Source of the DNA: a virus
Length of the DNA: 27,087 nt
Reading direction: 5' to 3' (one strand)
Virus record (IMG/VR): IMGVR_UViG_3300036804_000053
Coordinates: 1 to 27,087 of that record
Part shown: positions 1,454-22,023 of the stretch, in pieces
Layout of the letters: each line of letters starts with the position of its first letter
Position numbering within the stretch: the first letter of the stretch is position 1
Translations under genes and position numbers: made by a program
Notes under the pieces: generated by a model
What the model was told of the DNA's origin: nothing
What the model saw: only the letters and a program-made list of their open reading frames with translations
The model's database searches: none

Positions 1454-1909
1454 CTATGACAGCAGCCGCTCGCCGCTCAGGCCCGCCGTGCTGTGCTCGA
1501 TGCGCAGCGGCTGACGTGCTGACGGGGTGAACCCGAACTCCCGCGCCCACATCCGCACCTCCACCGAGGCATCGCGGCGCAGGGACACCGCCGGGTTCTT
1601 GTGCGCCAGGCCGTCGCGCCCGACCACCAGGGGGCCGGTCCGCGCCACGAGATCCGACAGCACCGCCAGCAGCGCGACGGCTTCGCAGTAGGCGCCGAGG
1701 GCGGTCGCGTCGACGGCCTTGGCGGTGCCCATCCGCGCCAGGTCGGGCATGATCCGGTCCCACTCGGCGACCGCCGGCTTGCTCAGCCACGCCGGCCGCT
1801 CGGGCGGCGCGTTGCGCGGCACCGGCTCGTCGCGGTTGATCCGGTACCGTTTCTCGCCCTTGATGATGCGCAGGTTCGTCGGCTCGGGCGCCGGGCCTCT
1901 ACGTCCCAA
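1454..1909 (-). CDS. terS: Phage terminase small subunit, P27 family
   Basis: 151 residues, the usual length for the P27 small terminase family (Terminase_4). The N-terminus MGRRGPAPEPTNLRIIKGEK is the family signature (MGRRGPKP...L+...G), followed by the Pro-rich PVPRNAPPERPAWLS, then helical AVAEWDRIMPDLARMG, ATALGAYCEAVALL and the closing REFGFTPSARQPLRI. In this family the protein recognises packaging DNA and feeds it to the large subunit. It is the last gene of a leftward operon, overlapping the methyltransferase by 11 bp. Oddity: the large subunit is rightward and starts about 4.5 kb away, whereas the two are normally adjacent on one strand. Confidence 0.9.
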   Translation of the reverse strand: MGRRGPAPEPTNLRIIKGEKRYRINRDEPVPRNAPPERPAWLSKPAVAEWDRIMPDLARMGTAKAVDATALGAYCEAVALLAVLSDLVARTGPLVVGRDGLAHKNPAVSLRRDASVEVRMWAREFGFTPSARQPLRIEHSTAGLSGERLLS

Positions 1910-2927
1910 CGGGCACCGCCTTGCGCAGGTGGCCGCCGAGGGCCTCGGTCAGCAGCGGGCACACGCTGTTGCCGATGCGGTGGTGCGCGACCTTGTACGT
2001 CGTGCCGGCCGGCCAGGTGAATTCGTCGGGGATGCCCTGCACGCGCATCAGCTCGCCGATCGTCAGGAAACGGTGCTCGCGCGGGTGCAGGATGCCGCAC
2101 CGGGTTGTGTCCACCAGCGCGGGAAGGGTCCAGCACACCCGGTCGAAATGGGCGCGCTGAAGGTTGTAGTAGGCGTGCCGCCCGCCGCGTTCCAGCAGCG
2201 CATGCTCGCCTTTGCGGCCGGGCTTGACGAGCACGGCCAGGCGCATGATGCGCTCGCCGGGCGCCGCGGGCTCGATGACGGGCGCCGGCGCCGGGGTGAG
2301 GGCGTCGCGCAGGATGACGCCACGGCGGGAGGGCGCCGGGAGACCGGGGGTTACCTCGAGGTCGGCGCGGGCGCCGGTGATGATGAGCCGGGGGCGCACC
2401 GTGGCGGCGCCGAACGCCTCAGCGGGCACGATCGCGGCGGTGATGGCGTACCCGGCGGCGGTCAGCGCCGCGCAGACTTCGGCGAAGCGGCGCGGGAAGC
2501 TGACCGGCAGGCCGGGCACGTTCTCCATCACGAACGCTTTCGGCTGCCAGGCGGTCAGCAATCGCACGAACTCAAGGAACAGCACCGAGCGGGGGTCGTC
2601 GTTCGCGCGCCGTCCGAGGCTGGAGAATCCTTGGCACGGCGGCGAGCCGTCAAGCAGGTCGAGCTCGCCCGGCGCGATGCCCAGTGCGCCGGGCGCCACG
2701 TCGGCGATGTCCCCCTGGTGGACGTGCACGCCGAAGTTGAGCCGCAGGCATTCGGCGGCGTGCGCGTCGTGCTCGACGGCGAGCAGCTCGCGGTACCCGG
2801 CGGCGAGGTAGCCGAGAGTCGAGCCGCCCATGCCCGCGAAGCAGGACGCGACCGTGGGGGCGTCATCGGCGCGCGGCGCGGTCGCGCGCTGCCACAGTTC
2901 CGACAGCCGGGCGGCGTAGCCGTTCAC
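1899..2927 (-). CDS. DNA (cytosine-5) methyltransferase
   Basis: 342 residues from a GTG whose GTGA overlaps the stop of the upstream ParB-like gene; an ATG at 2957 would add 10 residues inside that gene. The C5-methyltransferase motifs are present in order: motif I SCFAGMGGSTLGY (S-adenosylmethionine binding, about 28-40), motif IV GSPPCQGFSSLG with catalytic Cys98, motif VI MENVPG (Glu135), a variant motif VIII VRPRLIITG (about 178-185), motif IX LTIGELMRVQGIP (about 289-300) and motif X IGNSV (about 318-322). The interval for target recognition (about 190-285) is fairly short. No cognate restriction enzyme is nearby, so it is best read as an orphan phage methylase, perhaps protecting phage DNA from host restriction (inference). 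Confidence 0.93.
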   Translation of the reverse strand: MNGYAARLSELWQRATAPRADDAPTVASCFAGMGGSTLGYLAAGYRELLAVEHDAHAAECLRLNFGVHVHQGDIADVAPGALGIAPGELDLLDGSPPCQGFSSLGRRANDDPRSVLFLEFVRLLTAWQPKAFVMENVPGLPVSFPRRFAEVCAALTAAGYAITAAIVPAEAFGAATVRPRLIITGARADLEVTPGLPAPSRRGVILRDALTPAPAPVIEPAAPGERIMRLAVLVKPGRKGEHALLERGGRHAYYNLQRAHFDRVCWTLPALVDTTRCGILHPREHRFLTIGELMRVQGIPDEFTWPAGTTYKVAHHRIGNSVCPLLTEALGGHLRKAVPVGT

Positions 2928-3451
2928 CGCTCGCCGATCTCGAACTCGTGGCCGCACTGCGGGCAGGTGACCATCCGGCCGGGAGCGTCGTCGCCGGGCT
3001 CGCGCGGGACCAGGTGCTCGAACCCGGCGGGCAGTCCCTCGGTCTGCCTGGCCACCAGCGTCACCAGGTCGTCGGCCGTCATGCCGGACCCGCGCATGCC
3101 GTCGTCGCCGTCGGCCATCTCGGTCAGCAGGGTGATCAGCGCGTCCTCATCCCACACGCCGAGGCGCGCGAAGTGGTTGTCCGCGATCATGATCTTGCGG
3201 GCGACGTCATCGGTGCAGTCGGTGACCAGGCACGGCAGGTCGGCGATCCCGGCGTCCTTCGCCGCGCGCCATCGGTGCTCGCCGATGAGGATCCGCCCGG
3301 TGGACGCCTGCACCACCACGGCGCCGAAGAAGCCGATGGCGTCGATCGAGTCGGCGATCTCCTCGACCTGGCCGCGGTTCGGGTTGTCCGGGTGCGGTGC
3401 CAGCTTGTCGACGCTGCGCAGTTCGTAGCGGTGCGGGATGACCGACGCCAT
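2924..3451 (-). CDS. ParB-like (ParB/Srx fold) protein with C-terminal CxxC
   Basis: 175 residues; ATG at 3449-3451 with an upstream GAAAGG. Residues 8-100 match the ParB N-terminal nuclease-like domain: VDKLAPHPDNPNRG, IADSIDAIGFFGAVVV, the signature GEHRWRAAK (57-65) and an IADNHFA segment. The usual ParB helix-turn-helix and dimerisation domains are absent. The C-terminus (161-175) carries CPQCGHEFE, one half of a zinc knuckle. Such short phage ParB-like proteins are commonly encoded next to DNA methyltransferases, as here (4-bp overlap with the C5 methylase). The role may be DNA binding, nicking or CTP-dependent switching; it is not plasmid partition, as no ParA is present. Confidence 0.88.
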   Translation of the reverse strand: MASVIPHRYELRSVDKLAPHPDNPNRGQVEEIADSIDAIGFFGAVVVQASTGRILIGEHRWRAAKDAGIADLPCLVTDCTDDVARKIMIADNHFARLGVWDEDALITLLTEMADGDDGMRGSGMTADDLVTLVARQTEGLPAGFEHLVPREPGDDAPGRMVTCPQCGHEFEIGER

Positions 3452-6090: not shown

Positions 6091-6405
6091 ATGCCGTACC
6101 GTGCGCCGTCAGCGTGCGCGCCGGGCTGCCCGAATCCGCGGGGACGCTGCCCGGCGCATCCCTCGGCGCGCTGGGGTGACGGCGCGCGCGGCCGGCCGAT
6201 GCCGCCGGGCTGGTCGGCGACCAGGGCGCGCATCCTGAAACGCGACGGGCACCGATGCCGGTCCTGCGGTGCGCCGGCCGCCGAGGTGCATCACCTGGAG
6301 CCGGGCAACGAGTCTGACGACATGCTGGTGTCGCTGTGCGAGCCGTGCCACCTGCCGATTTCGCTGGCGCAGGCGGCGGCCGCGCGCGAGCTCGCCAGGC
6401 CGTGA
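6091..6405 (+). CDS. HNH endonuclease
   Basis: 104 residues from ATG 6091; GGAGG lies 16 bases upstream, a loose spacing, and translation may be nearly leaderless. The N-terminus has a Cys/Pro cluster (CAPGCPNPRGRCPAHP), then GWSATRARILKRDGHRC and the HNH core: CRSC (56-59), VHHLEPG with His67-His68, Asn73, then CEPCH (83-87). The two Cys pairs bind structural zinc; the His/Asn residues bind the catalytic metal. In HK97-like phages a small HNH protein encoded beside the terminase is required for cos cleavage and packaging; the 4-bp GTGA overlap with the large terminase gene supports that role here. Confidence 0.88.
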   Translation: MPYRAPSACAPGCPNPRGRCPAHPSARWGDGARGRPMPPGWSATRARILKRDGHRCRSCGAPAAEVHHLEPGNESDDMLVSLCEPCHLPISLAQAAAARELARP

Positions 6406-8024
6406 GCGACCGGCGCCGGTTCCCGCCGTGCGGTCGCGTGCAGGACGAGATGATCTGCAACAAGCGGGGTGAGCACCTGTGCGAACCGCGCGTCGCGCAC
6501 GTGCTCGCGTTCTTTACCGAGTTGCTGGTGCACACCAAAGGCGACTGGGCGCGGCGCCCGTTCATCCCGGCTGACTGGGAGCGCGACGAGATCCTGACGC
6601 CGCTGTTCGGCACGGTGGAGTACGACGCGCAGCGCGGCCGCTACGTGCGCCGCTACCGCGAGCTGTACCTGTCGACCGGCCGCAAGAACGGCAAGACGGA
6701 ACTCATCGCGGGCCTGGTGCTGTACCTGACCGTCGCCGACGGCGAGGAGGAAGGCGAGATTTACGGCCTGGCGCTGGACAAGGATCAGGCCGGGCTCGCC
6801 TACCGCGTCGCGGTGCGGATGTGCGAGCTGTCGCCGGTGCTGTCGCACCGGGTGCTGGTCGTGCGTTCCTCGCGGCGCATCGTGGATCCGAAAAGCGCGT
6901 CATTCTTCGCGGTGATGGCCGGCGACGCGATGGGCTCGCTGGGCGCCAACCCGCACGCGGTCTACATCGACGAGCTGCTGACGCAGCCGGACCGCGAGCT
7001 GTATGACGCGCTGCGGACCGGGTTCGGGACGCGCGCGCAGCCGCTGATGATCCTGGTGACCACCGCGGACAACGACCCGGCCGGCTTCGCGGCGACGGAA
7101 CGCAAATGGTCCGAGCGGGTGCAGGAGAATCCCGAGCTGGACCGCCGCCGCCTGGTGGTGCTGCATGCGGCGCCGCGCGATGCCGACTGGACCAGCCCGG
7201 CGACGTGGAAGCTCGCCAACCCGGCACTCGGCGACTACCTGGCCGAGCAGGTGCTAGCGGATGAGTGCAACAAGGCGATAGCCAACCCGGCCGCCGAGCG
7301 CGCGTTCCGGCAGTACCGGCTGAACCAGCAATCGGCGCGGGCCGGGCGCGCGATCGACATGAGCCGCTGGGATACAGCTGCACGGCGAGCCGGCCCGGCG
7401 GACTTGTCCGCGCGCAGGTGCTACGGCGGCCTGGACCTCGGTTCGACGATCGACCTGGCGTCGTACGCGCTCGACTTCCCCGACGGCGCCGACGGTCACG
7501 ACGTGCTGTGGCGCGTGTGGGCGCCCGAGGCGGCATTGCCGGCGCTGGACCGGCGGACCGGCGGCCTGGCCACGGTGTGGGCCGATGAGGGCTGGCTGTC
7601 GCTGACCGAGGGCGACGTCATCGACTACGAGGCGATCAAGGTCGCATTGCGCGAAGACGCCGAGGCGTACGAGATCGCCGAGATCGCTTTCGACCGCTGG
7701 AACGCGACGCAACTGTCTCTCGACCTGCTGGACGAAGGTTTCCCGCTGATACAGACTGGTCAGGGCTTCGCGTCGATGTCCGGTCCGACGAAAGAGTTCC
7801 TCCGCCTGGTCGCGGGAGGCTTCTACCGTCACGGCGGCAACCCCGTCGTGCGGTGGCAGGCCGGCAACCTGATCACCCGGACGGACCCGGCGGGAAACCT
7901 CAAGCCGGACAAGGCCAAGAGCGCCGACAAGATCGACTCGATCGTTGCGGGCATCATGGCTCTAGACCGTGCGATCCGGCACGCAGAGCCGCAGCGCGAG
8001 GATTACGCGGCGGCCGGGTTCTAG
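6402..8024 (+). CDS. terL: Phage terminase large subunit
   Basis: 540 residues from a GTG overlapping the HNH stop. This is the packaging motor and DNA-cutting subunit (Terminase_1-like). ATPase domain: Walker A TGRKNGKT (92-99), preceded by RYRELYLS, and Walker B VYIDE (187-191), then a coupling-type MILVTTADND. The C-terminal nuclease domain shows the expected acidic residues: Asp345 in GLDLGST, Asp431 in IAFDRWN, and Asp509/Asp512 in KSADKIDSIVAG. Length and motif order are normal and the gene looks intact. The small subunit is encoded on the opposite strand at 1454-1909 rather than immediately upstream. Confidence 0.95.
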   Translation: MSDRRRFPPCGRVQDEMICNKRGEHLCEPRVAHVLAFFTELLVHTKGDWARRPFIPADWERDEILTPLFGTVEYDAQRGRYVRRYRELYLSTGRKNGKTELIAGLVLYLTVADGEEEGEIYGLALDKDQAGLAYRVAVRMCELSPVLSHRVLVVRSSRRIVDPKSASFFAVMAGDAMGSLGANPHAVYIDELLTQPDRELYDALRTGFGTRAQPLMILVTTADNDPAGFAATERKWSERVQENPELDRRRLVVLHAAPRDADWTSPATWKLANPALGDYLAEQVLADECNKAIANPAAERAFRQYRLNQQSARAGRAIDMSRWDTAARRAGPADLSARRCYGGLDLGSTIDLASYALDFPDGADGHDVLWRVWAPEAALPALDRRTGGLATVWADEGWLSLTEGDVIDYEAIKVALREDAEAYEIAEIAFDRWNATQLSLDLLDEGFPLIQTGQGFASMSGPTKEFLRLVAGGFYRHGGNPVVRWQAGNLITRTDPAGNLKPDKAKSADKIDSIVAGIMALDRAIRHAEPQREDYAAAGF

Positions 8025-9566: not shown

Positions 9567-11507
9567 ATGACCACTCGGGTGCAAGTGCTGGACGCGCAGC
9601 CGATACCGGGAAACATCCAGACCGGGCAGATCATCGGCACCTTCCTGCAAGTCACCTCAGAGAACGGCACCGGGCCGCCGGTCGCTACCCCGTGCCAGGG
9701 CACGGTGACATTCACCGCGACCCCGCCGGCGCTGATCGACGCGACGTCAGTCCCGCCGGCCACGCTGCTGCCCGACCCGTTCACCGCGATTCTCGATGCG
9801 ACCGGCAGCATCGACATCGACCTGATGGCCACCGACGACGAGGATCTCAACCCGTCGGGGTTCACCTACACGGCGAGCTTCGCTATCGGGCCGGCGTACC
9901 GCCCGTTCAGCATCGCGGTGCCGTCCGGCAGCGTGCAGGACCTGTCGCTTATCGCGCCGGTGTCCGCCTCCGGCGGCGAGGCGATCGTCGTCGGCCCGCA
10001 GGGTCCGCCGGGCGACACCGGGCCGCAGGGCGACCCAGGACCGCAGGGCGATCCGGGGCCGGCGGGACAGCCGCAACTGGCATGGCTGAACGCCAAGACG
10101 CAGTACGGGGCGAAGGGCGACGGCGCCGCCGACGACACCACGCCGATTCAGAACGCGGTCAACGCCGCGCACGCGGCCGGCGGCGGTGTCGTCTACCTGC
10201 CGCCGGGCACCTACAAGACCAGCGCCGTCATCCAGCTCTACAGCTACGTGACGCTGATGGGCGACGGCCCGGCCATCTGCGTGATCAAGCAGAGCAGCGG
10301 ATCGGCGAACGGCGTGTCGGTGGCCGGCCCGGCGGCGGGCTCGACGTTCAACGTCCAGATCCGCGGGCTGACCGTGCAGGGACCGGGCAGCGGCACCACG
10401 GGCACCGGCACCGGCACCGGCATCATCGGCGACACGACCCATTCGGGGCTGACGGGGACGACACCGTGGTACCTCGGGATCGACAACGTGGTGGTGCAGA
10501 ACTGGGGCGCCGACGGCATCAACATCTGGTTCCTGCTGGTGTCCGCGCTGAGCCGCGTCGTTACCCAGTACAACGGCGGCAACGGCGGGTACTTCTCCGG
10601 TGATCCGGTCAACTACGTGCCGGTCACGTCGACGTCGTTCACCGCCTGCTACGCGCGGCAGAACGTCAAAGCCGGCTGGGTGCTCGCCCAGGCGGATTAC
10701 TGCACGTTCAACGGGTGCGCGGCCGACAACGGCGGTATCGGCTACCTGCTGCAAGGCGTCCAGGGGGTGACGCTGAACGGCTGCGGCGCCGAGTCGCAGG
10801 CGGCCAACGGCGCGAACGGCGACGGAACGGCGTTCAAGATCGACAAGGACTCCAACAACAACCCGTCGTCGGGCGTCACGCTGAATTCCTGCTGGAACGT
10901 CGTCAACAAGGCAGTCGCTTTCTGGGTGACCGGGGCGTCCAAGAACGTCACGCTGGCGGCGTGCGTGGAGAACTCGCCCGGCGCCGGCGCGACCGCATCG
11001 GTCAAGTACGACGCGGGCACCACCGGGAACCTGATCGGCGCCTCGGTCGGCTCGCCGCTGGCGGTCCCGCCGGGCACCGCGAGCATCCTCAACGACGGCA
11101 ACGGCAGCATGACGCTAAGCGGCGCGGCGTACGTCGGCGGCGGCGTCAACTCCTACGCCGGCCTGGCGGTCTCGGGCGGGGCGACGTCGATTGCGGGCGG
11201 CAACTTCAGCCTCGTCAACGCCGACGCCGCCGCGCCGACCGTGGGCACCGGCGCGACGATCGGCACGGCCGGCTTCGCGGTGCGCCGCATGACGTCCGCC
11301 GCCGCCGTGACCGGGCTGATCCTCGCGCCGGGCACCGTCGACGGGCAGCAGCTCCAGATCATCAACGAGGGCGGGTTCAGCCTGTCGTTCAACGCCACGG
11401 CCGGCGTGTCGAACATCGCCGGCACGGTCGCTCTGGTGATCGCCACGGCGACAGCAGCCAAGTTCGTCTGGTCGTCGGTCAAGAACCTGTGGTACCACAT
11501 CGCGTGA
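9567..11507 (+). CDS. Collagen-like / pectate-lyase-fold fibre or spike
   Basis: 646 residues, ATG after GAAAGGACGTGCC. Three parts are visible. Residues 1-142 form an Ig-like beta domain (VTFTATPP, DATGSIDIDLMATDDEDLNP) of a kind seen in actinophage virion proteins. Residues 143-169 are nine Gly-X-Y triplets (GPQGPPGDTGPQGDPG...), a collagen-like triple helix that would enforce trimerisation. From residue about 178, YGAKGDGAADDTTPIQNAV and VVYLPPGTYKTS mark a pectate-lyase-3 type right-handed beta-helix, as in tailspikes and depolymerases, followed by a C-terminal domain (QLQIINEGGFSLSF). It probably binds or degrades surface polysaccharide. Its place between portal and scaffold genes is unusual and suggests a capsid fibre or displaced tailspike. 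Confidence 0.85.
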   Translation: MTTRVQVLDAQPIPGNIQTGQIIGTFLQVTSENGTGPPVATPCQGTVTFTATPPALIDATSVPPATLLPDPFTAILDATGSIDIDLMATDDEDLNPSGFTYTASFAIGPAYRPFSIAVPSGSVQDLSLIAPVSASGGEAIVVGPQGPPGDTGPQGDPGPQGDPGPAGQPQLAWLNAKTQYGAKGDGAADDTTPIQNAVNAAHAAGGGVVYLPPGTYKTSAVIQLYSYVTLMGDGPAICVIKQSSGSANGVSVAGPAAGSTFNVQIRGLTVQGPGSGTTGTGTGTGIIGDTTHSGLTGTTPWYLGIDNVVVQNWGADGINIWFLLVSALSRVVTQYNGGNGGYFSGDPVNYVPVTSTSFTACYARQNVKAGWVLAQADYCTFNGCAADNGGIGYLLQGVQGVTLNGCGAESQAANGANGDGTAFKIDKDSNNNPSSGVTLNSCWNVVNKAVAFWVTGASKNVTLAACVENSPGAGATASVKYDAGTTGNLIGASVGSPLAVPPGTASILNDGNGSMTLSGAAYVGGGVNSYAGLAVSGGATSIAGGNFSLVNADAAAPTVGTGATIGTAGFAVRRMTSAAAVTGLILAPGTVDGQQLQIINEGGFSLSFNATAGVSNIAGTVALVIATATAAKFVWSSVKNLWYHIA

Positions 11508-14759: not shown

Positions 14760-15412
14760 CGACCCCCGTCTATGACATGGACCCGGCCGAGGTGCTCGTT
14801 GGCACCAGCAACGGCCCCGGTCTGTACGTCGCGCCGGTCGGCACCGACCCGCCAGCAGACACCAGCACCCCGTGGGCGTCCCCGTGGGAGATCCTCGGGT
14901 ACATCTCCGACGACGGCCCGACCGTCGGCTCGGCGACCACCACGCAGGACATCAAGCCGTGGCAGTCGCGTTCGCCGATCCGCACCGTGATCACCGAGCG
15001 CACGATGACGGTCAAGTTCATCCTCTGGCAGATCAACGAGATGACGCTGGCGATGTACTTCGACGCCGACCCGCCGACGCCGGCCGCCGACGGCTCGTTC
15101 GCGATGGAGGTCCGCAGCGACACCGACCAGCACCTGTACGCCATCGGCGTCGACACCGCCGACGGGCCGCGCGCGCTGCGGGTGATCTTCCACCGCGCGT
15201 CGCTGTCGGACGCCGCCGACATGCAGATCCAGAGCGGCGCCGCCGTGCCGCTGGAAGTCACCCTGACGGCGCTGGACGACGCGGGCGTGCTCGCCGACGT
15301 CCTGGTCGGCCCGTCGACCGCCGCGCCCGGCACTGACGTCCAAGCGCAGCAGCTTCCCGCGACCGCCGCCAAGACCCCGGCCATGGCCGGCAGCAGCACG
15401 GCGAAGGCGTGA
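14756..15412 (+). CDS. Major tail (tube) protein
   Basis: 218 residues; ATGA overlap with the tail terminator gene. The beta-rich core shows LYVAPVGTDPP, WEILGYISDDGPTVGSA, KPWQSRSPIRTVITERTMTVKF, NEMTLAMYF, LRVIFHRASLSD and PLEVTLTALDD, the usual pattern of actinophage tube subunits (WExLGYxSxDG is typical). It forms the stacked hexamers of the non-contractile tail tube. The last 40 residues are Ala/Thr/Gln-rich and probably exposed. Confidence 0.88.
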   Translation: MTTPVYDMDPAEVLVGTSNGPGLYVAPVGTDPPADTSTPWASPWEILGYISDDGPTVGSATTTQDIKPWQSRSPIRTVITERTMTVKFILWQINEMTLAMYFDADPPTPAADGSFAMEVRSDTDQHLYAIGVDTADGPRALRVIFHRASLSDAADMQIQSGAAVPLEVTLTALDDAGVLADVLVGPSTAAPGTDVQAQQLPATAAKTPAMAGSSTAKA

Positions 15413-15756
15413 CGGCGGCCAAGCCGGAACTGGACCTCTACGACCTCAGCGCGGCCGCCAACGCGGCGCTCGCCGAGGCGATCGAGCGGCCGTTCCGGTT
15501 CACCTACAAGGGCGTTGTCTACGAGCTGCCCAACCAGAAGCTGTGGCCGCTGTCGGCGATGGACGACATGGGCGGCGACATCGGCCAGTTCCTGACCGCG
15601 ATCGGCGCCAAGCCCGAGGTGTACGACGGGCTGTCGGCCGCCGGGCTTGTCGTCGGCGAGCTGCAACTGCTCATCGAGGCGGCGGTCAAGGACGCCGGGG
15701 TGGGAAGCCTCCCAAACTCCAAGCCGCCAGCGCGGCGCGGTTCGACCCGGACGTAG
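15409..15756 (+). CDS. Tail assembly chaperone G
   Basis: 115 residues from a GTG overlapping the tail protein stop (GTGA). An acidic N-terminus (KPELDLYDLSAAANAALAEAIERPF), then FTYKGVVYELPNQKLWPLSAMDDMG, and helices through LVVGELQLLIEAAVKDAG. It corresponds to lambda gpG: it binds the tape measure protein and recruits tail subunits before assembly. Near the 3' end the in-frame heptamer CCCAAAC allows a -1 shift into the following frame; without the shift, translation ends at TAG 15754-15756 after a short basic tail (PPARRGSTRT). Confidence 0.85.
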   Translation: MTAAKPELDLYDLSAAANAALAEAIERPFRFTYKGVVYELPNQKLWPLSAMDDMGGDIGQFLTAIGAKPEVYDGLSAAGLVVGELQLLIEAAVKDAGVGSLPNSKPPARRGSTRT

Positions 15757-16142: not shown

Positions 16143-19100
16143 TTACAGTTACGGCGGCCTGTCGATCGTGGTGCAGGCGATCACGGCGCCGATGGCCGCC
16201 GAGATCCGCCAGGCCGCGCTGCGGGCCGGCGACGAGGCAGCCGCGAGCCTTGAGAAGAAGCTCAGCCGCTCCATCACCGAGGGCCTGGTGCGCGGCGTCG
16301 CCGAGGGTTCGGCGAAGGCGTGGCGCGGCGCGGGACGCGCGGCTTCCGAGGGCCTGGCGTCGATGACGGAGGCCGCGCGCAAGGCGGCGACGGCGGCGGC
16401 GGTCGCGGCCAGCACGGCGTTCGAGCGGGAGGTCACGGCGCGGCTGGGCAGGGTCGCGGCGAAGACGCAGGAAATCCTGACGCCGATGGTGGAGGGAGCG
16501 CGCAGGGCGGCGGCGACGGCGGCGATCGCCGTGAGCGTCACGTTCGACCGGGAGGTCACCGCCCGGCTGGGCAAGGTCGCGGCCAAGGCGCAGGAAATCC
16601 TCACGCCGATGGTGGAGGGAGCGCGGAAGGCGGCGGCGACGGCGGCGATCGCGGCCAGCGTCACGTTCGACCGGGAGATCACCGCGCGCCTGAACGTGAT
16701 CGCCGCCAAGGCCGGCGATGCGCTGTCGGCGATGTCCGCGACGGCGCGCACGGCGGCCGCTAACGCCGCCGTGGCGGCGAGCCTGGCCTTTGACTCGATC
16801 CTCGCACCGCGCATCGCCAAGGCGGCAGCCAAGGCCGGGGAGGCGCTGTCGGGGCTGTCGGCGGCGGCGCGCAAGGAGGCAGCCTACGCCGCGTCGGTGG
16901 CCGGGAAGGTGTTCGGGGAGATCCTGGCGCCGGGGTTCGCGAAGGCGGCAGCAGCGGCCGAGAAGGCGCTGACGCCGATGGCGGCCGGCGTGCGCAAGGC
17001 GGCGGCGGTCGCGGCGCGCGCGGCCGGGTCGGTGTTCGGCGACGTCCTGGTGCCCGCTGTCGCCAAGGCGGTCGCGGCCGCGTCCGACAGCATGGCGACG
17101 CTGACGGACGCGGCGGGCGCCGTCGCGGCGTCGGCCAGCGCCGCGTTCGGCAGGATCATCGTGCCCGGATTCGCCAAGGCCGGCGAGCTGGCGTCGACGG
17201 CGTTCAACGCCGCGATGGACAGCCGGGTCGTCGCCGGCGCGCGCATGTCGGCGGCTAAGGCCGGCGAGTCGTTCAAGAGCGTCGGCAAGGCGGCGGGCGG
17301 CATGCTGAAGGGCGCCGCCGAGGCGGCGGCGCTGCTGGGTACCGGGTTCATCGGCTACGCGGTCAAGGCCGGCGTCGCCTACAACGTGCTTTACCAGAAG
17401 TCGATCAAGGCGTTCACGGTGACGCTCGGCAGCCAGAAGGCCGCCGAGAAGATGATGGCGAACATCTCGGCGTTCGCGAAGACCTCGCCGTTCCCGCGCC
17501 AGGCGTTCATCTCGGCGACTCAGACGATGCTCGGCTACGGCGTGTCCGCCAAGAAGATCATCCCCACCATGTCGGCGGTGCAGGATGCTGTCGCTGCGGT
17601 CGGCGGCGGCACCGACACGTTCACCAAGGTCATCAACGCGATCGCCAAGGTGCAGGCCGAGGGCAAGTTCACCGCGCGGACGTTCAACCAGCTCGGCAGC
17701 TACGGCATCAACGCCGCGCAGCTCATCGGCCAGGGCATGAACCTGACCGCCGCGCAGGTGCGCCAGGAGGTCACCAAGAACAAGCTCGACACGCAGACGG
17801 CGCTGACCGACCTGGTGACGCAGATGCAGATCAGGTACAAGGGCGCGGCGGCCGGGCTCAAGTCGACATGGACCGGCGCGAAGCAGTCGATTCAGGCCGC
17901 CATGCGCGACATCGGCTCGGCGATCGTGGAGCCGTTCATCAGCAAGAAGGGCGGCGGCCTGGCGATCCAGTGGGCCAACAAGCTCGGCAAGGTGCTGTGG
18001 GACCTGGAGCCGGCCGTCACGCCGCTGGTCAACGCGCTGATGGTGTCGCTGGCCCCGGCGATCCACGCGGTGAACCTCGGGATCAACTGGCTGCTCGACC
18101 AGGCCGACCAGCTCAAGGGCAAGAACCTGTCCGCCGCGACGAAGGCAGTCGAGAAGTTCGGCGGCGCGTTCACGGCGGTCGGCGCGGCGCTATCGGTTTT
18201 CACCGGGGCCAAGCTGCTGCGCGGCCTGCCGCTGATCGGCGACATCGCGGGCGGCCTGCTCGGGCCGTTCGAGGCGCTGGCCGGGCCGCTCGGCCTGATC
18301 GTCGGCGCGATCACGCTGATGGTGGCCAAGTCGCCGAAGCTGCGCGCCGCGCTCGTCGACGTCGGCAAGGGCGTCATCGCGTTCGTTGAGCCGGTTTTCT
18401 CCGCAGTCGTGACCCTGGCGCAGGCAGCCTTTTCCTGGGTCAGCCAGCTTGCCGGGGTCATCGGCGACAAGCTCGCGCCGGCGCTGTCGTCGCTCGCGTC
18501 CTGGCTGCCGGGCGCGGGCAAGAGCGCCGGGAAGTTCATCGGCAGCATCACCGGGACCGCCAAAGCGGCCGTCGCCAAGCCGGCGAAGCAGACAGCCGCG
18601 CAGTCGGTCGGGCAGCGGTTCGCCGCGCACGCGACCTCGGCGACCGCCGTAACCCCGCAAACCCCTGGCCTGCTTGCGCGCATCACCGGGAGCGTCACGA
18701 ACTTCGGCAGGGCCGTCGCCACCGACCTGACGCCGATCATGGAGGCGCTCGCCGGGGTTTTCAAGATCATCGTCCCGTACTGGGAGTGGTTCTTCGAGCT
18801 GCTGGCAAACAGGTTCGGCCCGATCCTGACGCGGGTGTGGACGCTGCTGTGGCCGCTGATCCAGGGCGTCGCCAAGTTCATCGGCGATGACCTGCGGGTG
18901 CTCGGCACCGTACTGGGAGTGGTGCTGCCGATCGCTTTCAAGGCGTTCGTCGCGGTGATGAAGTGGGTCGTCCCGATCATCATTGACGGCATCGCCGGAA
19001 TCATCACCATCGCGATCGACATGCTGGCCCCGTTCGTCAAGTTCCTCACCTGGCTGCTTGTCCACTTCTGGCCCGGCGTGCAGCGGGTGGCGGGGCTGCT

Positions 19101-22023
19101 GGTCGGCGCGTGGAACTGGATCTCCAGCTCCGCGAAGAAGGCTTTCGATGCGACCTGGGGCTGGATCAAGGATTTCAGCAGCAAGTTCATCGACTGGGCG
19201 TCGCACCTGTTCGAGACCATCGGGAAGTTTTTCAGCGACGGCTGGTCCGGCCTGGTCAGCGGGGCCACGAACGTCGGCGGTGACGTGCTCCGGGTGCTGA
19301 AGTCCGGATTCGAGGCCGCATGGAAAGACATCTCGTCGTGGGTGCGCGACCACATCGTCGGGCCGATCGTCAACGCGGTGAAGTGGTTCTTCCACATCGG
19401 CGGCAGCAACCCGGCGGGCGCCAGCGCCAAGAGCGCGAGCTCGCCCGTGCACGTGGGGGCGCAGGGCGGCGGCGGGACCGGTATCGCGGTGGCCAGCGCG
19501 GCGGCCGCAGCGCCCGGCGACGACAGCGGCGGCGGCCTGTGGGGCAACGTCGGCGGCATCTTCGCCGGCATGGTCGAACAGGTCGTGACCTCGGATGCGC
19601 TCAAGATCGGGGAGAAGATCTTCGGCTCGGCTGCCGACGCGCTGGGCTGGATCGTGGTCAAGGGCCTGGTGGCGGTCAAGGATCTCGGCAAGGTCGCGCT
19701 CGGCGCGCTGGAGAAGATCCCCGGCGTAAGCTCGGCGCTCGGCTTCCTCGGCGGCGCGCTCGGCGGCGGCGTCGGCGGCGTCACCGGCCTGGTCAACCGG
19801 GCGCTCGCCTACGCCGGCCATGCCTACATCTGGGGCGGCGGCGCGAACTCGGCGACCGGGTTCGACTGCTCGTCATTCGTCAACATGATCGCCGGGATGG
19901 CGGGCCTGCCCGAGCCCGGCGGATTCCGCGCGCCGAGCAGCCAGCACGGGCCGGTTACCGGCAACTGGCTGAGCTTCGGCGGACTTCAGACGGTGCCGTA
20001 TGACCAGATGATGCCGGGCGACCTGTACGTCAACACCTCGCACATGGGCATCGTGACGGGCAAGGGCATGGGATTCGCGGCGCGGTCCACGCAGAGCCGC
20101 ACCGGGCCGCAGAGCGTCCCGAGGGGCGTCTACACGATCCGGCGGTGGCCGGGCGGCGGCGGGACCGGCGGCGGCGTCGGCGACGGCAGCCTGCTCGCGC
20201 AGGCACTGTCGGGCCTGCTGTCGCAGGGCCAGGGGGCGGCGCCGTCGGTCGTCTCCGGTTCGAGCAGCCAGAACCTGGAGACGATCGCCCGGTACATGTT
20301 CGGGCACGGCTGGAGCCTGCCCGGCGCCGCCGGGGTCGCGGGCAACATCTGGCGCGAGTCGCTCGGCGACCCGCTGTCGTACGGGTCCGGCGGACGCGGG
20401 CTGATCGGCTGGACGCCGCCCAACACGCTGCCCAACTCGGCGTTCATTCCCGGCAACCCGTCGGCGTCGCTGAGCAGGCAGCTTCCCCTCGTCAACTCGT
20501 TCTTCCGCGACCACATGGGCCGCTACCTGGCCCTGGCCAACGCGCAGAGCGACGCGGGGCTGGCCGCGCTGGTCATCATGAACATGGGCGAACGGCCGGC
20601 CGGCTCCAGCCAGTCCAACCCGTTCTTCGGCGGCACCGGCACCTCGGCGGGCAGCCAGCGCGCGGCGATGGCACGCAACATCTTCGACCTGCTACGCCAG
20701 TCGGCAACGGTCAAGATGGCCACCGGCGGCGTGATCCGCGAGCCGGTGGCCGGCATCGGCGTTTCGGGCACGAGCTACCTGCTCGGCGAGAACGGCCCCG
20801 AGGGCGTGCTGCCGGCGAAGCTGCTGGAGTACCTGAAGCAGCTTCTCAAGATGATGGCGGCGACCGCCGCCAGGCAGCCGGCGGACCGCCGCAACCTGCT
20901 TGTCGGCTCGCAGGACGTCGCCGCGCCGGTGAAGAAGGCGGTGGCCGCCGCTGTCAGCGGCGCCGCGTCCAAGGCGGCGGCGGCGGGCGCGGCGACTGCG
21001 GCGGCCGCCGGGACGGTGACCGGCGGCTCGGTGGCTGCGGTGAAGAAAGCGCAGGAGTACGCCACCAGGGCGGCGAAGGTCGCGGCGACCAACGCGGCGC
21101 GCGCGGCGCGGGTCGCGGCGAGCAACAGCGCGGCACTGGCGCGGGTAGCGGCCTCCAACACCGCCCGGTCGGCGCGTGTCGCCGCGACCGACGCGGCGCG
21201 GCTGGTCAAGCTACAGGCGACGATCACCGCGCGCATGACGAAGGTCAGCGCGACCAACGCCGCGCGGCTGGCCAGCGCGAACCTGACGAACTCGACCAAC
21301 GCGCACAAGACGGCGATCACCAACGCCGCGGATCTCGCCAGGGCGCAGGCGCGGCACTACGCGTCCGCGCAGACGCGGGCCAACGCGATCGCCCGCGTCA
21401 CCGCCTCCAACAACGAGCGGCTCGCGAAACTGGACCTGTCCAACGTCAAGCGGCTCGCGCAGGCCAAGACGACGAACGCGACCAGGCTGGCGGCCGCCGA
21501 GGCGACCAGCGATGCGCAGCTCGCCAGGGCGAAGGCGACCAACGCGAGCGACCTGGCGAAGGCGAACGCGTCCAACGCGGCCGCGCTGAGCAAGGCCGAG
21601 ACGTCGGCGATGCTGGCGCTGGAGAAGACCGGCATCAGCGCCGCCGAGGCGCTCAAGAAGCTGGCGGCGAGCAACCCCGGCCTTATCGCCCTGGCGAAGG
21701 GCAAGCCGATGCCGCGCGGCCGCAACGACCTGTTCATCCCCGGCCGGCCGGTGCTGACCAAGGCGCAGATTGACCGGGCGATCAAGAATCCGCCGTTGCT
21801 GCCGCCCTGGGTGAAGCAGCGGATCGGCGACGTCACCGGCTCGGCGTCGGGACGCGGGCAGATGGCGATCTCGCCGAAGGAGGCGCAGCAGATCCGCGAT
21901 GCGGTGGCCAAGCAGCCGGTTGTCGTCAACGTCTTCCCGCGCGAGAAGCAGTCGGAGACGGAAGTTGCCGCCGCCGTCTCGCGGAGCCTCAACTGGGCGG
22001 CGCAAGGCGGTGCACGAGGATGA
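16135..22023 (+). CDS. Tail tape measure protein with NlpC/P60-like and lysozyme domains
   Basis: 1962 residues; ATG 16135 overlaps the G-T stop. Parts in order: residues 59-372, an Ala-rich helical region of 41-residue repeats; about 385-640, a TP901-type core (FAKTSPFPRQAFISATQTMLGYG, GKFTARTFNQLGSYGINAAQL, LKSTWTGAKQSIQAAMRDIG); about 690-780 and 870-1090, hydrophobic Trp-rich membrane-like stretches; about 1220-1340, an NlpC/P60-like peptidase (YIWGGGANSATGFDCSSF with Cys1245; SHMGIVTGKG with His1303); about 1380-1520, a phage tail lysozyme-like domain (AGVAGNIWRESLGD, Glu1408); GENGPEGVLPAKLL; residues 1640-1833, 11-residue repeats; and a C-terminal VVVNVFPREKQSETEV. It sets tail length and probably cuts the wall during DNA entry. 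At roughly 1.5 angstrom per residue the upper estimate is near 290 nm. Confidence 0.94.
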   Translation: MADYSYGGLSIVVQAITAPMAAEIRQAALRAGDEAAASLEKKLSRSITEGLVRGVAEGSAKAWRGAGRAASEGLASMTEAARKAATAAAVAASTAFEREVTARLGRVAAKTQEILTPMVEGARRAAATAAIAVSVTFDREVTARLGKVAAKAQEILTPMVEGARKAAATAAIAASVTFDREITARLNVIAAKAGDALSAMSATARTAAANAAVAASLAFDSILAPRIAKAAAKAGEALSGLSAAARKEAAYAASVAGKVFGEILAPGFAKAAAAAEKALTPMAAGVRKAAAVAARAAGSVFGDVLVPAVAKAVAAASDSMATLTDAAGAVAASASAAFGRIIVPGFAKAGELASTAFNAAMDSRVVAGARMSAAKAGESFKSVGKAAGGMLKGAAEAAALLGTGFIGYAVKAGVAYNVLYQKSIKAFTVTLGSQKAAEKMMANISAFAKTSPFPRQAFISATQTMLGYGVSAKKIIPTMSAVQDAVAAVGGGTDTFTKVINAIAKVQAEGKFTARTFNQLGSYGINAAQLIGQGMNLTAAQVRQEVTKNKLDTQTALTDLVTQMQIRYKGAAAGLKSTWTGAKQSIQAAMRDIGSAIVEPFISKKGGGLAIQWANKLGKVLWDLEPAVTPLVNALMVSLAPAIHAVNLGINWLLDQADQLKGKNLSAATKAVEKFGGAFTAVGAALSVFTGAKLLRGLPLIGDIAGGLLGPFEALAGPLGLIVGAITLMVAKSPKLRAALVDVGKGVIAFVEPVFSAVVTLAQAAFSWVSQLAGVIGDKLAPALSSLASWLPGAGKSAGKFIGSITGTAKAAVAKPAKQTAAQSVGQRFAAHATSATAVTPQTPGLLARITGSVTNFGRAVATDLTPIMEALAGVFKIIVPYWEWFFELLANRFGPILTRVWTLLWPLIQGVAKFIGDDLRVLGTVLGVVLPIAFKAFVAVMKWVVPIIIDGIAGIITIAIDMLAPFVKFLTWLLVHFWPGVQRVAGLLVGAWNWISSSAKKAFDATWGWIKDFSSKFIDWASHLFETIGKFFSDGWSGLVSGATNVGGDVLRVLKSGFEAAWKDISSWVRDHIVGPIVNAVKWFFHIGGSNPAGASAKSASSPVHVGAQGGGGTGIAVASAAAAAPGDDSGGGLWGNVGGIFAGMVEQVVTSDALKIGEKIFGSAADALGWIVVKGLVAVKDLGKVALGALEKIPGVSSALGFLGGALGGGVGGVTGLVNRALAYAGHAYIWGGGANSATGFDCSSFVNMIAGMAGLPEPGGFRAPSSQHGPVTGNWLSFGGLQTVPYDQMMPGDLYVNTSHMGIVTGKGMGFAARSTQSRTGPQSVPRGVYTIRRWPGGGGTGGGVGDGSLLAQALSGLLSQGQGAAPSVVSGSSSQNLETIARYMFGHGWSLPGAAGVAGNIWRESLGDPLSYGSGGRGLIGWTPPNTLPNSAFIPGNPSASLSRQLPLVNSFFRDHMGRYLALANAQSDAGLAALVIMNMGERPAGSSQSNPFFGGTGTSAGSQRAAMARNIFDLLRQSATVKMATGGVIREPVAGIGVSGTSYLLGENGPEGVLPAKLLEYLKQLLKMMAATAARQPADRRNLLVGSQDVAAPVKKAVAAAVSGAASKAAAAGAATAAAAGTVTGGSVAAVKKAQEYATRAAKVAATNAARAARVAASNSAALARVAASNTARSARVAATDAARLVKLQATITARMTKVSATNAARLASANLTNSTNAHKTAITNAADLARAQARHYASAQTRANAIARVTASNNERLAKLDLSNVKRLAQAKTTNATRLAAAEATSDAQLARAKATNASDLAKANASNAAALSKAETSAMLALEKTGISAAEALKKLAASNPGLIALAKGKPMPRGRNDLFIPGRPVLTKAQIDRAIKNPPLLPPWVKQRIGDVTGSASGRGQMAISPKEAQQIRDAVAKQPVVVNVFPREKQSETEVAAAVSRSLNWAAQGGARG
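16309..17250 (+). repeat. 41-residue (123-bp) tandem repeats in tape measure N-terminus
   Basis: Units begin at Phe 96, 137, 178, 219, 260 and 301, with shortened 37-residue units before and after and a last one from 338. Units 1-3 share FDREVTARLG, AAKAQEILTPMVEGAR and KAAATAAIAASVT; later units drift to FGxILAPGFAKAAAxA. At the DNA level units 1 and 2 (from 16420 and 16543) match in long stretches including synonymous positions, for example AATCCT-ACGCCGATGGTGG, which indicates recent duplication. Confidence 0.85.
21052..21633 (+). repeat. 11-residue (hendecad) repeats in tape measure C-terminus
   Basis: Residues 1640-1833 consist of about 17 consecutive units of 11 residues with one 7-residue skip. 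The pattern is [A/T][S/T]N-x-A-x-[L/A]-A-[R/K]-[V/A]-x; examples are ATNAARAARVA, ASNSAALARVA, ASNTARSARVA, ATNAARLASAN, ASNNERLAKLD, TTNATRLAAAE and ATNASDLAKAN. An 11/3 periodicity implies a long straight or slightly right-handed helix or coiled coil. It lies after the lysozyme-like domain. Confidence 0.85.

Follow-up and report, generated by a model that had tools for sequence, protein, structure and literature searches.

The window analysed here is a viral contig of about 27 kb from IMG/VR (27,087 nucleotides, record IMGVR_UViG_3300036804_000053), and it encodes a tape measure protein (TMP) of 1962 residues, to which the residue numbers below refer. Behind two cell wall hydrolase domains and close to its C-terminus, this protein carries an array of 11-residue (hendecad) repeats, which is a real and well-conserved structural module. 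Its periodicity, its predicted helix, the conservation of its register and its restriction to an insertion in one clade were each established computationally. In the best reading of these results, which we hold with about even confidence, the array would be a clade-specific rigid helical rod, inserted into the protein and adding distal tail length, hydrolase reach, or both. This spacer role is unproven but testable.

The array occupies residues about 1642–1846 (21058–21672) and consists of 16 clear and 2 degenerate 11-residue units, with one 7-residue skip and the unit consensus N-A-A-R-L-A-K-A-x-A-[T/S]. An earlier note on this DNA, made from the sequence alone, had described about 17 units with a single 7-residue skip at 21052–21633, that is, residues 1640–1833; this description was accurate, and its C-terminal edge can be extended by about 13 residues. 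Within residues 1640–1833, the identity at lag 11 is 0.372, against a mean of 0.151 in same-composition shuffles (z 9.4, 0/5000), with harmonics at lags 22 and 33 (z 8.2 and 4.1, respectively); lag 7 did not rise above chance in the shuffle test. The statistics of the unit pool 50 units from three homologues. Asn is concentrated at position +0, which holds 33 of its 48 occurrences (p about 1e-23 against an even spread; the pooled value is too small owing to shared ancestry, and the single homologues each still give p below 1e-6). Bulky aliphatic residues occupy +4 in 37/50 units and +7 in 16/50, with no significant compensation between the two positions among the pooled units, and Lys or Arg occupies +6 in 42/50 and +3 in 22/50, Ala being found at the remaining positions. 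Basic residues number 28 in the array and acidic residues 10, and one third of it is Ala. Only two of 197 array residues are aromatic, so that the array lacks a Trp or Phe marker recurring with the 11-residue period.

AlphaFold2, run as a single chain on residues 1531–1962 with 17 aligned sequences, predicted one unbroken helix of about 200 residues (1633–1832), with a predicted local distance difference test score (pLDDT) of 89–96 over most of it. For a diverged relative, L006, a single-chain helix of 187 residues was obtained, and the long helix anticipated in the earlier note is thus supported in both proteins. At 0.15 nm per residue, the window helix would measure about 30 nm. On an 11/3 helical wheel, Leu at +4, position +8 and the Ala residues at +1, +5 and +9 form an apolar face with the basic residues opposite, and rough symmetric-bundle scans with two to six straight helices picked this face in each of the three homologues. 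The unbroken predicted helix, the 11-residue register and the consistent apolar stripe are those of a hendecad (11/3) helix. Since a hendecad and the heptad-sized skip add up to 18 residues, or five helical turns, the helix can run on through the skip. On the basis of these models, the array is very probably a helical rod. A conserved polar layer of Asn had also been proposed; Asn is indeed fixed in the unit, but in the bundle scans it flanks the best core, whose leading residue is Leu at +4. Given that the apolar face is weak, we regard a bundle as plausible from the sequence.

Three contigs carry close relatives of the TMP. Two of them, L005 (the same as L002, L007 and L042) and L006 (the same as L032 and L041), extend to the C-terminus, and the third, L004, is cut off before reaching it. 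Relatives came to light solely by way of neighbouring genes, the TMP_3 domain, an alignment of the C-terminal anchor and the enzyme region, which is 86% and 72% identical to the relatives; a single-protein search with the C-terminal part of the window protein found no relatives in viral or genome contigs. L005 has an identical layout of units and the same skip, with no gap and 52% identity to the window hendecads. Between these two proteins, orthologous units are 0.52 identical and non-orthologous units 0.35 (0/5000 permutations), and this greater likeness of orthologous units means that the array predates the split between the window and L005. In L006, the register is kept over about 13 units, with no skip. 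The hendecad pattern read from the window alone therefore recurs in both relatives, with the same units in one of them and fewer in the other.

Between the window and L005, protein identity falls from 85–91% for the enzymes through 79% for the anchor and 52% for the hendecads to 18% for the trailing linker. Across the relatives, the hendecads show 40–52% amino acid identity, compared with 16–18% for the linker and 72–91% for the enzymes. Relative protein divergence was used here in place of the ratio of nonsynonymous to synonymous rates (dN/dS), which was dropped, as synonymous distances look compressed (about 0.3–1.1 in every region) at high GC. Judged from these alignments, the hendecads are intermediate in divergence, less variable than the linker and more variable than the enzymes, as expected of a structural spacer, and the constraint would act on the hendecad pattern more than on the exact residues.

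The C-terminal anchor, about 35 terminal residues with the pattern [VI]NVYPxxxQSETEIAAAVSRxLxWA, ends in a predicted helix and is common to 23 distinct soil-phage TMP C-termini. The EPV motif and this anchor lie 39–57 residues apart in 20 other soil-phage loci (two of them identical), 159 in L003 and 404 in L005; measured from the EPV motif to the protein end, the window, L005 and L006 have 432–442 residues and the short layout has 74–89. L003 carries a different, His/Ala-rich linker with no hendecads there. These comparisons suggest that about 350 residues, mostly rod, were inserted in one soil-phage lineage, loss elsewhere being less parsimonious. The array follows the lysozyme-like domain, as the earlier note had it. 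That the array is always tied to the pair of NlpC and lysozyme domains was considered and rejected, because L051 has NlpC and a lysozyme-like stretch without the array. The related TMPs thus differ by one clean module, forming a natural insertion/deletion series with gaps of 39–57, 159 and about 400 residues. Such a series could test whether the gap between hydrolases and anchor sets tail length, enzyme reach, or both, and would bear on the wider questions of what distance wall-cutting enzymes cover from the hub and which role the C-terminal part of the tape plays after ejection.

We infer the trimeric state of the rod by analogy with solved tails, and its spacer function as a further step. 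The TMP C-terminus is trimeric in the hub of Douge (PMC13033339), lambda (PMC10721106), T5 (PMC10038345) and 80alpha (PMC7048315), and this analogy supports the earlier placement of the array near a C-terminus held in the tail hub. The TMP helices resolved there (lambda gpH 818–842, the last 35 residues of T5 pb2C, the last 20 of 80alpha and Douge 1658–1699) put a C-terminal segment at the tail tip, where the window anchor would be expected; however, the resolved part comprises 20–42 residues, whereas in the window protein a predicted helix of 200 residues precedes the anchor. Because solved TMPs are trimeric, with their last 20–42 residues in the hub, three rod helices would run alongside one another in the lumen of the distal tail, and a parallel trimer in the virion is probable.

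In the proposed mechanism, the array, inserted between the EPV/GPE segment behind the two wall hydrolases and an anchor expected in the baseplate hub, would form a single continuous helix of about 200 residues and 30 nm. Three such helices would pack into a bundle of low supercoil, their Leu(+4)/Ala stripes turned inward and their Lys/Arg/Thr faces outward, and the rod would stand in the distal tail lumen between the hub and the hydrolases. In the virion, it would add as much as about 30 nm to the distal tail. During ejection, with the C-terminus docked at the opened hub, it would set the reach of the hydrolases and of the membrane segments into the wall. A length of 30 nm is comparable to the Gram-positive wall. 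That spacing is the main role of the rod has, in our judgement, an even chance of being correct; that it serves hydrolase reach and not mere tail length is a more tentative proposal. For T5, a model has one part of the TMP remaining docked at the hub after this has opened, with the other part moving outward (PMC10038345). In TP901-1, loss of the C-terminal-most 11-residue repeats lowered plaquing 1000-fold with lysogeny partly persisting, and one repeat could be replaced by 11 Ala (PMC5099701). These results suggest that length and register outweigh residue identity, which fits a spacer.

More simply, the array might be a plain ruler, an ordinary tail-length helix that happens to lie near the C-terminus and has no role after ejection. 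The tail length of TP901-1 follows the length of its TMP helix at about 0.145 nm per residue (PMC5099701), repeat arrays have been gained and lost among TMPs (PMC3271669), and the unit number differs between the window-type relatives. However, the insertion always lies behind the hydrolases and beside the anchor, its unit is unlike the Trp-rich repeats that the relatives have in mid-TMP, and the skip and individual units are conserved in L005. In TP901-1, moreover, it is the repeats closest to the C-terminus that matter for plaquing (PMC5099701). We consider such a plain ruler possible but doubtful.

Several points weigh against the rod as a spacer. The models are single-chain only, and Ala-rich sequences readily yield confident lone helices. 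The core face is weak, consisting of Ala and one Leu or Val per unit, and position +8 near its centre is often polar. The unit number varies among relatives (about 17 and about 13), so that an exact length is not required. The anchor has no significant sequence match to the solved hub C-termini of TMPs in the PDB, and the best TMP match of the EPV-to-anchor profile, DT57C (E 0.47, hhalign probability 8%), involves mainly the GPE motif and was not used as support. Finally, these phages are known only as contigs.

Repeats of 11 residues act as membrane-surface helices in alpha-synuclein and perilipin, and the ejected array could likewise lie on the anionic host membrane as an amphipathic 11/3 helix with Ala/Leu and Lys/Arg faces, steadying a pore. 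The period fits such a surface helix, the direction of the hydrophobic moment is consistent in the three homologues, and their net charges are +18, +14 and +8. On the other hand, the hydrophobicity of the face is low, with a polar residue common at its centre, the protein already has separate long hydrophobic stretches at about residues 870–990, and no family match was found in Pfam. A membrane-surface role is accordingly rated as improbable.

Less probable still is a conduit in contact with DNA, in which amide and basic side chains would line the genome path as in the phiX174 H tube. Phage phiX174 H has three hendecads and a lumen of mostly Asn, Gln and Arg (PMC7354561), Asn at +0 and Lys/Arg at +3 and +6 are fixed in the window-type units, and a channel-like density across the envelope in Douge infection was ascribed to the TMP (PMC13033339). 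A hub-docked rod that lined or gated the DNA path through the wall by means of Asn and Lys/Arg would be a convergent double-stranded DNA phage counterpart of the H tube, with hendecads added to a TMP; we give this extension equally little credence. Solved TMPs are trimeric, and three helices are too few to surround DNA, the H tube being made of ten. On the wheel, Asn and Lys flank the apolar face from opposite sides instead of sharing one narrow face, and no sequence match to solved proteins, H included, was found in the PDB. The two proteins have in common a hendecad helix in a DNA-delivery protein and fixed amide and basic side chains (PMC7354561), but H is a decamer with three hendecads followed by heptads, from a single-stranded DNA microvirus, without a detectable sequence relation to the array.

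An 11-residue period is not new for TMPs, and the contrast that the earlier note drew with the regions usual in them holds only in part. In 2011, nearly 5% of annotated TMPs were reported to carry 11-residue repeats with Trp/Phe markers, and an 11-11-18 spacing is also on record for TMPs other than this one (PMC3271669); TP901-1 has such repeats, and three relatives of the window TMP carry 44-residue (4 × 11), Trp-rich repeats in mid-TMP. The Trp/Phe-marked repeats of C. botulinum prophages, staphylococcal phages, TP901-1 and p2 resemble the window array in their tandem 11-residue units of variable copy number and in an occasional 18-residue (11 + 7) spacing (PMC3271669, PMC5099701). The window array differs in the absence of an aromatic marker, in its Ala-rich Asn/Leu/Lys pattern, and in its site after the wall hydrolases and beside the anchor. 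The aromatic-free Asn/Ala/Lys unit and the site behind the hydrolases appear to be new. The array unit has no match in named phages, Pfam families or solved structures: in named phages, only the N-terminal and middle parts of the TMP matched, with no significant match for the hendecads, the anchor or the enzyme region, and the hendecads had no match among PDB sequences. A search of genome contigs with the anchor alignment also gave no matches. Long 11-residue-periodic helices further occur in the peripheral stalk of ATP synthase (b subunits) and in LEA group 3 proteins, and a review of rotary ATPase stalks reportedly uses the term hendecad. The window array has no Pfam match to either and a different context. 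The likeness to LEA-type segments that the earlier note mentioned is not backed by Pfam, in which no match to LEA_4 or LEA group 3 was listed up to E 10 (filters drop most matches above about 0.1).

The protein is identified as a TMP by its TMP_3 domain, its matches to PHROG TMP families and its large open reading frame, placed between the tail assembly chaperone and minor tail genes. The coordinates of its parts are collected in the table.

Table. Features of the tape measure protein gene in the window
Feature	Position	Strand	Evidence
Tape measure protein gene, 1962 aa	16135..22023	+	Pfam TMP_3 at 420–592, E 8e-15; PHROG tape measure families
N-terminal 41-residue repeats, about residues 61–340	16315..17154	+	lag-41 z up to 17
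NlpC/P60 domain, residues 1228–1321	19816..20097	+	Pfam PF00877, E 6e-5
Phage_lysozyme2 domain, residues 1380–1520	20272..20694	+	Pfam PF18013, E 6e-10
EPV/GPE motif GGVIREPVAGIGVSGTSYLLGENGPEGVLP, residues 1531–1560	20725..20814	+	conserved in 17 aligned TMPs
Hendecad block 1, 9 units, residues 1642–1740	21058..21354	+	lag-11 periodicity; inside AlphaFold2 helix 1633–1832
7-residue skip HYASAQT, residues 1741–1747	21355..21375	+	kept in L005, missing from L006
Hendecad block 2, 9 units, last two degenerate, residues 1748–1846	21376..21672	+	lag-11 periodicity, unit register
Fast-changing linker, residues 1847–1927	21673..21915	+	16–18% identity to relatives; low pLDDT stretches
C-terminal anchor motif VVVNVFPREKQSETEVAAAVSRSLNWAAQGGARG, residues 1928–1962	21916..22020	+	conserved across 23 soil-phage TMP C-termini

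Some further observations concern the TMPs of this group. Where the window protein has 41-residue repeats at its N-terminus, L006 has 42-residue repeats. His/Ala-rich runs such as HLAHLAHLAHLAHL occur in the TMP linker before the anchor, in L003 (6093–9989, near its end) and near the TMP C-terminus in L006. Three TMPs with the same anchor, in L017, L025 and L028, have no EPV/GPE motif, and an 11-residue-periodic Ala/Ser/Gly stretch (z 6–7) is found within their last 300 residues.

Upstream of the TMP gene, the tail assembly chaperone gene (15409–15756, + strand) contains an in-phase slippery heptamer, C CCA AAC, at 15711–15717; a −1 shift at this site enters an open frame that reaches 16142, which corresponds to the usual programmed frameshift before a TMP. 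A large-terminase-like gene lies at 6336–8024 on the + strand, its assignment as the large subunit being judged from sequence only. Genes for a terminase small subunit, a C-5 cytosine methylase and a ParB-like protein occupy 1454–3451 on the − strand and so run against the structural genes. Between the portal and capsid genes, an unusual site for a tail spike, 9567–11507 (+ strand) encodes a tail-spike-like protein with a pectate-lyase fold and a short collagen-like stretch.

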